Origin: an uncultured Ruminococcus sp.
GTDB taxonomy: Bacteria > Bacillota > Clostridia > Oscillospirales > Ruminococcaceae
Assembly (NCBI GenBank): GCA_945868475.1
Contig: CAMBLM010000002.1
Location: forward strand, 124,001-188,000
DNA length: 64,000 nucleotides
Reading direction: 5' to 3'
Shown here piece after piece: positions 15,888 to 21,611 of the stretch (position 1 is its first letter; the number at the start of each line of letters is the position of its first letter). The notes under the pieces were generated by a model, which was given only the letters and a program-made list of their open reading frames with translations, was not told the origin of the DNA and made no database searches. The position numbers were made by a program, and so were the translations under genes.

Positions 15888-16345
15888 TTCGTAATTGTTT
15901 TGCTTCGCAAAATTGACGCAAAGCCTTAAATATGTAGGGGCGGATTCCATATCCGCCCGTTAGAATACAACAAAACACCCCTGTTTTCATCGGATAAACC
16001 GTTGAAAACAGGGGTGTTCGTTTTTATGAAACACTTTAATACTAAACACCAATAAAATAAAGGAAAAAATCTGCACCGAAATCGCATATATTCAAGATTG
16101 TCGGCTTGATTTTTTCTATATTTTAAATGGTGTTTAGTATAAATTCAGGTTTGCATTGGGCGGATATAGAATCCGCCCCTACGGAATTTGGTGTTTTGCA
16201 AATAATTTACGGAGCATAAATAATCCCGAATTCCGAATTCATCAGAAAACGCCTTGCGGCGAGGGACGGGCAACCCGTCCCCAACAGAAATTCGGATAAA
16301 TTTTCGGTGCAAATTAATTACGCATTACGAATTACGCATTGATCA
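15879..16345. repeat. composite inverted-repeat/terminator element (E3)
   Basis: AATGCGTAATTCGTAATT / AATTACGCATTACGAATTACGCATT ends, GTAGGGGCGGATTCCATATCCGCCC (15933) inverted to GGGCGGATATAGAATCCGCCCCTAC (16158), core ACACCCCTGTTTTCA..TGAAAACAGGGGTGT; contains a nested MITE. Confidence 0.85.
16040..16139. mobile_element. MITE-like element copy 2, nested in E3
   Basis: 100 bp with same TIRs and TAA duplication as copy 1. Confidence 0.85.
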
Positions 16346-18929
16346 AGAGTTCATTGTCAACGCAGTCGATCTTGACCGTGCTGTACGGTTCGATCTCGTC
16401 GGCGATGATCTTCTTTGCGAGCATTGTTTCGAGCGTACTCTGGATATATCTCTTGAGCGGTCTTGCGCCGTATACGGGGTCATAGCCGTTATCTGCGATA
16501 TAGGTCTTGGCGGCGTCGGTGACATCGAGCGTGATCTGCTTATCCTTTAAGCGGTTCTGGAGGCTCTTGAGCATAAGGTCGATGATCGGGAATATCTCTT
16601 TCTTGGTGAGCGGCTTATAGAACACGATCTCATCAAGACGGTTGAGGAACTCGGGACGGAAGTGGCTCTTGAGCAGATTGCTTACGTTCGCTCTTGCTTC
16701 GTCCGAAATCTCGCCGTTCTCGTTGATGCCGTCGAGGATAAAGTCCGAACCCAGGTTAGAGGTAAGGATTATGATAGTATTCTTGAAGTCTACCGTTCTG
16801 CCCTGCGAGTCGGTGACACGGCCGTCATCAAGGATCTGGAGCAGGATATTGAACACATCGGGGTGAGCCTTTTCGACCTCATCAAAGAGGACTACGGAAT
16901 AAGGCTTTCTGCGGACTGCCTCGGTGAGCTGACCGCCCTCCTCATAGCCGACATATCCCGGAGGTGCGCCGATAAGACGGCTTACGCTGAACTTCTCCAT
17001 ATACTCGGTCATATCGATACGGACGAGGTTGTTTTCATCGTCAAAGAGGCACTGTGCAAGAGTTTTTGCAAGCTCTGTCTTACCAACGCCCGTAGGTCCC
17101 ATGAACATAAACGAACCGATAGGTCTGTTCGGATCCTGGATACCTGCTCTTGAACGGAGGATAGCTTCGCTGACCTTTTTAACTGCTTCGTCCTGACCGA
17201 TAACACGGCGGTGAAGAATTTCCTCGAGGTGGAGGAGTTTTTCACGCTCGCCCTCCATAAGCTTTGAAACGGGGATTCCAGTCCAACGGGCAACGACCCT
17301 TGCGATCTCTTCATCGGTAACTTTATCGTGAAGAAGCGTATCAGCCTTGTTCTTTTCGGCTGTTTCCTCAGCAGCTTCGAGCTTTTTTTTCAATTCGGGG
17401 ATCCTGCCGTAGGTGAGTTCTGCGGCTTTATTGAGGTCGCCGCTGCGCTGTGCGGAAGCAAGCTCGCCGTTAGCGGCTTCGATCTGCTCACGGAGCGACT
17501 GGAGGTTCTTGATATTCGCTTTTTCGTTTTCCCAACGTGCTTTCATCTCGTTGAATTCGGCACGCATTTCGGAAAGCTCCTTGCGGATATTTTCAAGTTC
17601 TTCCTTGGAAAGCTTGTCGTCCTCTTTTTTGAGGGCGGTTTCGGCTATCTCCTGCTGCATTATCTTACGGGCGAGGTCGTCCATTTCGGCAGGCATTGAA
17701 TCCATTTCCGTTCTTATCAGAGCGCAGGCTTCATCAACGAGGTCTATAGCCTTATCGGGGAGAAATCTGTCGGTGATATAACGGTTGGAAAGCGTTGCGG
17801 CTGTGATAAGTGCGGAGTCCTGGATTTTTACGCCGTGAAAGACTTCGTAACGCTCTTTAAGACCTCTCAGAATGGAGATAGTGTCCTCAACGGTCGGTTC
17901 GTCTGCCATTACAGGCTGGAAACGACGTTCGAGTGCAGGGTCTTTTTCGATATACTTACGGTACTCATCAAGCGTTGTTGCGCCGATGCAGTGGAGTTCG
18001 CCCCTTGCGAGCATAGGCTTTAAGAGGTTGCCTGCGTCCATTGCGCCGTCGGTCTTGCCTGCGCCGACGATAGTGTGAAGCTCATCGATGAAGAGGATGA
18101 TCTTTCCCTCGGACTTCTTGACTTCGTTAAGAACGGCTTTCAGACGCTCCTCGAACTCTCCTCTGAACTTTGCGCCCGAAATAAGGCTGCCCATATCGAG
18201 GGAGAAGATAGTTCTGTCACGAAGATTTACAGGAACATCTCCACGGACGATACGCTGTGCAAGGCCCTCAACGATAGCGGTCTTACCAACGCCCGGCTCA
18301 CCGATGATAACAGGGTTGTTCTTGGTCTTACGGGAAAGGATACGGATAACGTTTCTTATTTCGGCATCTCTGCCGATAACAGGGTCAAGCTTGTTTCTCT
18401 TTGCGAGTTCAACGAGGTCCTGACCGTATTTTTTCAGTACATCGTAGGTGTCCTCGGGGTTGTCGCTCTGGACACGCTGGTTTCCTCTGATCTTGGAAAG
18501 GGCATCGAGGAATTTATCCTTTGTGATGCCGAATGTTTTGAAGATCTCGTTGATGCTGCTGTTTGCAGTATTGAAAAGCGCAAGGACGATATGCTCAACG
18601 GAAACATAGTCATCATGCATATTCTTTGCGATCTGTTCAGCCTGATTGAGGCAGCTGTCTACATCGGAAGAAACATAAACCGTGTTCATCTCTCTGCCGC
18701 TGCCCGTTACCTTCGGGAAAGATGCGATCTTCTGCAAGAGTGCGTTCTTTACGCCCTCATTGTCAGCGCCCATTGAGTTCCAGAGCTGTGAGATAAGTCC
18801 GTTCTCCTGCTCGGTCAGAGCATAGAGAAGATGTTCCTGCTCAATGCGCTGGTTCTGGTATTCAACAGCGGTGCTTTGAGCAGCATTGATAGCGTCAAGT
18901 GATTTTTTAGTGAATTTGTTTGCGTCCAT
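16332..18929 (-). CDS. clpB: ATP-dependent chaperone ClpB
   Basis: 865 aa; two AAA modules ([34 protein letters not shown]), middle coiled coil. Confidence 0.97.
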
Positions 18930-18941
18930 AAAAATCGACCT

Positions 18942-18977
18942 CCTTTGATGTTATCAAAAACAATGGCTAATGCCATG
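18942..18977 (-). promoter_or_regulatory. candidate structured 5' UTR / RNA thermometer of clpB
   Basis: RNA sense ..AUGGCAUUAGCCAU UGUUUUUGAU-AAC-AUCAAAGGAGG: hairpin whose U-run pairs into the Shine-Dalgarno flank. Confidence 0.35.
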
Positions 18978-19329
18978 GATTTTGTCGTTTAAATTGATTT
19001 TTATACAATAGGTGTAACAATTTGCACAGTATTGTGCAGAACGCACAAGCTCAGCTTCATTTCGACATTTTATTTCGTAATCGCGCGAGATTGTGCATTT
19101 TTTACAATACTCTGTTAATATTATTGTAAAAATATTTGCTGTTTTGGTTTGAATTTATGTAAACGGGAAGAAAAATGTCCTTGTTTGGCGCATTTAACTC
19201 CCCTCGATCGGCATAATCAGTCGGGTTTTGTCGTTTTATGCGATATAAAAAGCTTGAAATAAATTGTGAACAGATTTATAATAAATTTTAAGAAGAGGTG
19301 TTATTAAATTTTTTGAAAGAGGGATAATA

Positions 19330-19596
19330 ATGAATACACTTAAAACCATTGCCACCGCACAAAACCGATTATGCTACAGCCTTACCGAAAGCATCCGTGA
19401 GGACGGAAGCGTTTCTTATGGGGTAAAGGCGGTGACGACATTGTTCGGTACTTCCGAGGAAGCGGCTGTTGAGGATATCTCATCCGACAGGCAGGTCGTT
19501 GAAAATTTTGTGGATCTGCTCGCGGACAACCTTGTTCTGCCGTCCACTTTAACAGAAGTTGCGGAGGAATTCGTTGCGTCTTTTTTCACAGTTTGA
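19330..19596 (+). CDS. small conserved protein, DUF6514-like
   Basis: 88 aa; VEDISSDRQVVENFVDLLADNLVLPSTLTEVAEEFV. Confidence 0.55.
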   Translation: MNTLKTIATAQNRLCYSLTESIREDGSVSYGVKAVTTLFGTSEEAAVEDISSDRQVVENFVDLLADNLVLPSTLTEVAEEFVASFFTV

Positions 19597-19605
19597 CGAA
19601 AACGC

Positions 19606-19634
19606 TTGACATGATCCCATCTTTGTGGTATAAT
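19606..19634 (+). promoter_or_regulatory. promoter of smpB
   Basis: TTGACA - 17 bp - TATAAT. Confidence 0.8.
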
Positions 19635-19677
19635 ATCTAATTACGAAATCATCTTGCTGTAAAAAGGGACAAACACT

Positions 19678-20142
19678 ATGGAAAAGGAAGCTTTTAAGAC
19701 AATTGCCGAAAACCGAAAGGCACGGCATGAATACTTTATCCTCGAAAGCTTTGAAGCAGGCATTGAGCTTGTCGGAACTGAGGTAAAATCTATCCGCAGC
19801 GGCGGAGTCAACCTCAAGGACAGTTGGTGCATCATTGAGGACGGCGAACTTTTCGTGAACGGTATGCACATTTCGCCCTATGACCACGGCAATGTTTTCA
19901 ACAAAGACCCTCTGAGAGTCCGCAGACTGCTCATGCACAAGAAGCAGATAATGCAGCTTCTCGGAAAGATCAAGCAGGACGGGCTTACGCTCATTCCGAT
20001 CTCGATCTATTTCAAGGGTTCGCGCGTTAAAGTTCAGGTCGGACTTTGCAAAGGTAAAAAGCTTCACGATAAGCGTGATGATATGGCAGCGAGGGCTGCA
20101 AAACGTGATATTGAAAGAGCTGTCAAATCCCGGAACCGTTAA
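19678..20142 (+). CDS. smpB: SsrA-binding protein
   Basis: 154 aa; [31 protein letters not shown]. Confidence 0.97.
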
Positions 20143-20159
20143 AAAAGTTCTGCATCTTT

Positions 20160-20508
20160 GGGGATGTAAAGGTTTCGACGGGGACTTTGAATCACGATAA
20201 GCGGGTAGAGGAGCGCACACTCTCAAAACGGCGCACGTTTTAAAATTAGACGACAACAATAATTTTGAATTAGCAGCTGCTTAATTGCTGCTCGTCTTGC
20301 CGTTGAGTACCACGGCTTCGGTTAAGGCGTCGACTAGTGGTGAACGCCGCAGGAAAGTGCCTGCGTTCTTGCGGTGTATTGCAGGCTACCGAGCATCATT
20401 GTGTGTTTGTTCACGATGATGCGAGGGAACGTTAATAACAAACTACACCCGTAGAAAGTTGTGTGGATAGGTTTTCGGACACGGGTTCGATTCCCGTCAT
20501 CTCCACCA
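20160..20508 (+). ncRNA. ssrA: tmRNA
   Basis: 5' GGGGATG pairs with 3' CATCTCC-ACCA including G3:U70; tag ORF GACGACAACAATAATTTTGAATTAGCAGCTGCTTAA = (A)DDNNNFELAAA*; TTCGATTCCC T-loop; follows smpB. Confidence 0.97.
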
Positions 20509-20664
20509 GAAGACCCACATATATGTGGTAAAGAGTCTATGTTTTTCATAGGCTCTTTTTCTTTTGTCTTCTTTGTGCCTATGTCCTTTATCCTTTTCTA
20601 CGATTTATAGTATAACTGCACATTGTGTATATTTTATGATAATATTGTGAATATAGAGTAAAAA

Positions 20665-20691
20665 TTAGCACTCGCTGGGTAGGAGTGCTAA
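20665..20691. promoter_or_regulatory. CIRCE operator (HrcA-binding)
   Basis: TTAGCACTC-N9-GAGTGCTAA, exact consensus. Confidence 0.85.
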
Positions 20692-20855
20692 TTTGTTTTT
20701 TGGGGGGACAGCACATATCGAAATTATTTCTCCCACAAAAATCTAAGTTAGGCTTCTTGACTTTTTTGAAAAAATGTGATAATATATTCAATGCTTACTA
20801 TGACGATATACTTTATAGACATTGAAACAAAATAGTTATCTAAGGGGATAAGTTT

Positions 20856-21611
20856 ATGCTTGATCAGTTTTCAAGAACCGAGCTTTTGTTCGGAAAAGAA
20901 GCAATGGATAAGCTGAAAGGCAGCAGGGTCGCTGTTTTCGGCATCGGCGGCGTAGGCGGATACGCTGTCGAGGCACTCGTACGAAGCGGTGTAGGTACGC
21001 TTGACCTTATTGACGATGACAAAATATGCATTACAAATCTGAACAGGCAGATCTTTGCCACACGAAGCACTGTCGGAAAATACAAGGTCGATGTTGCGGA
21101 AACGAGGGTACACGATATTTGCCCCGATATAAAGGTAAACACATACAAGTGCTTTTATATGCCGGACACGGCTGATGCGTTCGATTTCTCGGAATATGAC
21201 TACATAATCGATGCGATAGACACTGTGACGGGCAAGCTTGAGATAATAAAACGTGCAAAGGCTTTGGATATCCCCGTGATATCCTCAATGGGCGCAGGAA
21301 ACAAGCTTGATCCGACCGCTTTCCGTGTTGCGGATATTTATCAGACAAAGGTTTGTCCGCTGGCAAAGGTAATGAGATATGAACTCAGAAAGCTCGGGAT
21401 AAAAAACCTTAAAGTGGTCTATTCCGAGGAAAAGCCGATCCGTCCGATCGAAGATATGGAAATATCCTGCCGAAATCACTGCGTATGCCCTCCGGGAACT
21501 GTAAGAAAATGCACCGTGCGCCGGGATATACCGGGTTCAAATGCTTTTGTTCCGTCGGTGGTGGGACTCATTATTGCAGGAGAAGTTATAAAGGATCTTG
21601 CGAAGAACTAA
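20856..21611 (+). CDS. tcdA: tRNA threonylcarbamoyladenosine dehydratase (ThiF/HesA-type E1-like)
   Basis: RVAVFGIGGVGGYAVEALVRSG, INRQ-type motif NLNRQIFAT, DAIDTVTGKLEII. Confidence 0.9.
   Translation: MLDQFSRTELLFGKEAMDKLKGSRVAVFGIGGVGGYAVEALVRSGVGTLDLIDDDKICITNLNRQIFATRSTVGKYKVDVAETRVHDICPDIKVNTYKCFYMPDTADAFDFSEYDYIIDAIDTVTGKLEIIKRAKALDIPVISSMGAGNKLDPTAFRVADIYQTKVCPLAKVMRYELRKLGIKNLKVVYSEEKPIRPIEDMEISCRNHCVCPPGTVRKCTVRRDIPGSNAFVPSVVGLIIAGEVIKDLAKN

Follow-up and report, generated by a model that had tools for sequence, protein, structure and literature searches.

The CIRCE palindrome at 20665-20691 of the window (the whole 64,000-nucleotide stretch analysed here) is, in our reading, the operator of an HrcA-controlled clpB promoter that lies displaced beyond smpB-ssrA, and the predicted clpB leader would run antisense to both of these genes in an excludon-like layout. 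We put the probability of this reading at about three in four. The features on which the text relies are:

20665-20691, no strand (palindromic): CIRCE operator (HrcA site), 0 mismatches, with little or no variation among 15 aligned ssrA-linked elements
20624-20662, minus strand: promoter block of four phased 11-bp boxes, TT(C/T)AYA, at the expected −35 place (alignments A1 and A2, information profile)
20662-20657, 20651-20646, 20640-20635 and 20629-20624, minus strand: the four boxes (A2 columns 1-39 are window positions 20624-20662)
20609-20614, minus strand: −10 hexamer TATACT, exactly 50 bp from CIRCE (all 19 ssrA-linked sites, hsp20 test)
20530-20558, plus strand: ssrA terminator (terminator scan; an equivalent in every locus)
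20160-20508, plus strand: ssrA, tmRNA (ARAGORN; Rfam tmRNA, 174 bits)
19678-20142, plus strand: smpB (Pfam SmpB, 208 bits)
19330-19596, plus strand: DUF6514 ORF between clpB and smpB (Pfam PF20124, 49 bits)
18930-20602, minus strand: predicted clpB leader of ~1.67 kb, antisense to ssrA, smpB and the DUF6514 ORF (from direction, synteny and the lack of strong terminators)
16332-18929, minus strand: clpB, the proposed target (Pfam ClpB domains; TIGR03346, 1355.6 bits; same orientation in 18/18 loci)

A perfect CIRCE behind ssrA

The operator has the form TTAGCACTC-N9-GAGTGCTAA over 27 bp and is the sole match in the window even when up to three mismatches are allowed; from shuffled sequences such a site is expected by chance ~0.01 times per window. 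A previous sequence-only reading of this DNA had pointed out the perfect CIRCE, and its description of the surroundings was borne out. No groES, groEL, dnaK or hrcA follows the operator among the window ORFs, the tmRNA gene ends just before it (a gap of 156 bp by our measurement, 157 bp in that reading), and the next gene, 164 bp past CIRCE, is the ThiF-family, TcdA-like ORF on the plus strand (20856-21611) with its own promoter-like TTGACT-17-TAATAT at 20757-20785. What was overlooked is clpB, on the minus strand across smpB-ssrA from the operator.

The source genome encodes one HrcA (161 bits), whose gene is preceded by its own CIRCE. Scanning the genome for further sites, as had been proposed, gave five in total, namely those of groESL, hrcA-dnaK, htpG, hsp20 (1 mismatch) and the window site, so that the other four all stand at heat-shock genes, groESL among them. 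Since these genes, each with a CIRCE of its own, are found elsewhere in the genome, no groE/dnaK operon has been lost at this place, as the earlier suggestion had it, and the element is itself conserved. At the groESL, hrcA and htpG sites a TTGAnn-16/17-TATAAT-type promoter ends ~4 bp before CIRCE. The window site fits the CIRCE class in its sequence-level features (operator, an hrcA in the genome, TATACT at offset 50, clpB beyond smpB-ssrA), and binding and repression by HrcA are predicted.

Two side observations concern the other CIRCE loci. The hrcA leaders L017, L019, L021 and L023, as well as L003, carry extra CIRCE-like half sites right after CIRCE (CAGAGTGCT..AAGTGCTAA), a genus-wide repeat. 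At a contig end (G000:C10:102500-107660, L008) hsp20 and its CIRCE promoter are divergent from a pst-like phosphate-transport operon that includes a response-regulator-like gene, the names being assigned by eye from the ORFs.

Conservation is confined to the ssrA side

The sequence-only reading had also proposed to look for conservation downstream of ssrA, and the site is indeed kept there in 18 distinct loci, all from one clade of Oscillospiraceae/Ruminococcus-type bacteria. Within the genus the element occurs in five of six genomes: in G002, G003 and G005 CIRCE lies 108-135 bp past ssrA, in G001 the same block is found at a cut contig end, and in G004 (81% complete) the element was not seen. 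A GTDB-wide pattern scan of ~85,000 species (tmRNA 3' end, 91-151 nt, CIRCE) returned 30 stretches; 17 had no tmRNA and were taken as chance matches, and the 13 with a tmRNA, each a species, all belong to Oscillospiraceae, Clostridia or Ruminococcus and are nearly all MAGs.

In the alignment, a stretch of 60-68 bp on the ssrA (left) side of CIRCE is conserved with rigid spacing, and the sequence to the right, including the T-run, is not. In relatives the right-hand neighbour gene varies and is mostly convergent, and tcdA is not adjacent to the site. This one-sided conservation, together with the changing right-hand gene, removes both the tcdA and the terminator readings that had been offered earlier. 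That the palindrome is an intrinsic terminator, a transcriptional roadblock or the relic of a lost heat-shock operon we consider very improbable: the CIRCE stem does fold as RNA and a T-run follows the palindrome in G000, G003 and G005, but many relatives have identical CIRCE arms with no T-run, ssrA has a strong terminator of its own, and the terminator scan did not call the CIRCE site. Nor does a relic resemble 60 adjacent bp held under constraint at fixed spacing throughout a deep clade. Little more credit goes to a plus-strand promoter that makes a small RNA or feeds tcdA. TAnAGT-like hexamers do occur just before CIRCE, roughly at the canonical −10 place, but they are variable and have no −35, the right side is not conserved, the next gene is mostly convergent, and the hexamer that is invariant is the minus-strand TATACT.

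Phased boxes and a −10 hexamer directed at ssrA

Within the conserved block a −10-type hexamer stands at offset 50 in 19/19 ssrA-linked sites, and TATACT (AGTATA on the plus strand) is almost invariant. No −35 was found in the window's block, where the four phased boxes stand instead. Transcription would start near 20602 on the minus strand, and across loci only ~45-110 bp separate the −10 from the 3' end of ssrA.

When 398 family genomes were searched with a profile built from the element (R1), weaker copies turned up beside hsp20 genes with the gene on the block side, in the order CIRCE, block, hsp20. R1 includes TATACT and its matches are biased to offset 50; we therefore checked the offset again on hsp20 genes selected by protein and on clpB loci selected by gene. 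When hsp20 was picked by protein alone, CIRCE lay upstream in 27/30, and 18 of these 27 CIRCE-bearing genes, from related genera, had a TATAAT-type hexamer on the gene side at offset 50, where 1.6 are expected per offset. Among 36 CIRCE sites within 1 kb of clpB, 12 had a −10 at offset 50-51; most of the others were canonical, with the −10 just before CIRCE. As this architecture is thus found ahead of hsp20 and of roughly one in three CIRCE-linked clpB genes, the promoter points into ssrA, and homology to the hsp20 and clpB promoters identifies the window element, at the level of sequence, as a minus-strand promoter directed at ssrA.

Only the CIRCE stem pairs when the block is searched for structured RNA, and an Rfam search over the region gave nothing but tmRNA above the gathering score. 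The phased TT(C/T)AYA boxes are reminiscent of the tandem sites to which OmpR/PhoB-family regulators bind. Given that no −35 accompanies them, an activator or an unusual sigma factor may serve hsp20, clpB and the putative RNAs described below. A dif/XerCD site, raised by a TTATG-like sequence, was dropped on inspection only.

CIRCE-free copies of the block and the TcdA-like genes

Copies of the promoter block that have no CIRCE precede apparently noncoding regions in the genus. Three of them (L258, L259 and L255; G002:C51:43942, G003:C81:29465 and G001:C43:1118) stand before a conserved, apparently noncoding transcript with the pattern GTAG-CGGGAGGA...GGCGAAAGCC...CCCCCAATAATCCTATATC...terminator, which has no Rfam match at the gathering threshold and is possibly a new small RNA. 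A second set (L253, L254, L256, L257 and L263, the last at G000:C2:222313-222365, outside the window) shows TTTCATAA..AACACAAA..GGTTATACTGTAATCATTCC beside a conserved membrane-protein gene; it again precedes a region without a clear gene and has no Rfam match. Separately, the source genome has two TcdA-like (ThiF family) genes, the one at 20856-21611 and another at G000:C5:101031-101729, which are 65% identical, and the other genomes of the genus have one each. With the TcdA-like protein as query, a search of viral contigs produced a single distant match and no useful lead.

clpB as the proposed target of the promoter

In all 18 distinct loci (those with enough flank, shared records counted once) clpB lies beyond smpB-ssrA on the strand of the promoter, the distance to the nearest CIRCE being 1,072-1,985 bp, and the opposite strand carries ssrA and smpB in the interval. 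The distance of 1.7 kb in the window arises because smpB-ssrA sits in between. Of 100 sampled family genomes, 34 had CIRCE no more than 320 bp upstream of clpB and one had it at 919 bp. Another five had smpB-ssrA within 4 kb upstream of clpB, four of these with CIRCE beyond ssrA, and the remaining 60 had no CIRCE upstream of clpB. The fifth nested genome, G095, has clpB-smpB-ssrA and no CIRCE was found there. In the ClpB tree all nested loci, G095 included, form one clade (support 100/100), for which the simplest history is a single origin of the nesting followed by its retention.

The region next to clpB is much less constrained than the distant block. Between G000 and G003 the promoter block is 88% identical and the 140 bp adjoining clpB 38%, and over 15 loci the mean identities are 0.67 and 0.43, respectively. 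Weak promoter-like sequences before clpB occur at about chance level, and an additional proximal clpB promoter may exist. The gap between smpB and clpB is only 142-158 bp in four lineages. From the promoter to clpB, the clpB strand showed no strong terminator in the 18 loci, where three weak 6-bp hairpins were counted; this absence concerns sequence antisense to genes and is weak as evidence. At one locus (L060/L218, G332:C38) DNA has been inserted at the ssrA 3' end and the original element is now 3.2 kb from clpB; the insert carries a CIRCE of its own, the second at this locus, which has TATTAT at offset 50, lies 1.4 kb from clpB and faces ssrA and clpB. The insert also contains a repeat of the ssrA end (TGGTGGAGATGA).

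The promoter could be real and HrcA-controlled and yet make an antisense RNA to tmRNA (and smpB), with the nearby clpB served by a promoter of its own. The evidence on direction, from the −10 at offset 50 and from homology to hsp20 and clpB, also fits such an RNA, the short distance from the −10 to the ssrA 3' end speaks for it, and in some loci weak proximal promoter-like matches precede clpB. We nevertheless regard it as unlikely, as clpB is downstream in 18/18 loci and has a CIRCE directly before it in roughly one in three family genomes, the GTDB scan gave no CIRCE just past ssrA without clpB beyond, and the clpB-proximal region is not conserved. Against a clpB promoter, in turn, stand the very long leader, which would run against the direction of a strongly expressed gene, the lack of CIRCE in G095 inside the clade and the lack of a visible element in G004.

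Proposed mechanism and its meaning

In the mechanism that we favour for the displaced clpB promoter, HrcA would repress a minus-strand promoter made up of CIRCE, the phased 11-bp boxes and TATACT. Once heat or protein damage releases HrcA, transcription by RNA polymerase would begin near 20602 and cross ssrA and smpB antisense before reaching clpB. The product would be a clpB mRNA with a leader of ~1.67 kb (1.1-2 kb across loci). The earlier idea that HrcA controls an unannotated transcript was right in essence but not as to strand, since the predicted transcript is on the minus strand and runs over ssrA-smpB towards clpB. Transcription itself, HrcA binding and read-through into clpB are predictions from the arrangement, as is any effect on tmRNA, which is an abundant and highly folded RNA.

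Heat shock would raise ClpB by this route, and trans-translation might be disturbed. Polymerase collision and duplex RNA could cause mutual interference between clpB and smpB-ssrA, likely as a side effect. It is conceivable, although we lean against it, that the locus works as a heat-shock excludon in which the full-length antisense leader lowers trans-translation and smpB-ssrA transcription in turn limits ClpB. The layout may also have been kept merely for being harmless.

If the proposal is true, two protein-quality systems are linked by DNA layout alone, in that a single promoter under HrcA control would increase the ClpB disaggregase through a transcript antisense to both tmRNA-rescue genes. 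An 'orphan' operator could then serve a gene more than 1 kb away on the other strand, a kind of case that nearest-gene regulon prediction misses. The comparison also describes a second CIRCE promoter architecture, found at hsp20 and clpB of this family, in which 50 bp separate the operator from the −10 downstream of it and the phased boxes occur without a −35. No earlier report of such an arrangement was found in the literature searched, which covered few subscription papers.

Comparison with known systems

With the canonical HrcA/CIRCE promoters of the same genome (groESL, hrcA-dnaK and htpG) the window element shares the 27-bp operator, hrcA and a chaperone target. In canonical promoters a TTGAnn/TATAAT-type promoter ends just before CIRCE and the gene lies beyond it, whereas in the window the −10 comes 50 bp after CIRCE, the boxes take the place of a −35 and clpB is 1.7 kb off. 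The CIRCE-50-(−10) promoters that precede hsp20 and clpB in related genera have the same operator, boxes, spacing and direction, with the gene immediately behind; in the window smpB-ssrA stands between on the opposite strand.

The noncontiguous operon menE-menC-MW1733-ytkD of S. aureus, as far as it is outlined in a review (Saenz-Lahoya et al. 2019, via PMC7154746), has an opposite-strand gene inside one transcription unit, and the window locus likewise embeds opposite-strand genes in one predicted unit. From that outline, the operon has its genes on both sides of the embedded one, whereas in the window the embedded genes lie between the promoter and the first gene. The intact loci showed no gene on the minus strand between ssrA and the CIRCE promoter, and only clpB follows; with no operon gene ahead of the embedded ones, the window locus is not strictly a noncontiguous operon.

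In an excludon, the long 5' leader of one gene is antisense to divergent neighbours (review PMC7154746). The window has this layout, with clpB on the minus strand, smpB-ssrA on the plus strand and the promoter beyond ssrA, the antisense transcript here being predicted, and the genes overlapped in this excludon-like locus are those of tmRNA and its partner SmpB.
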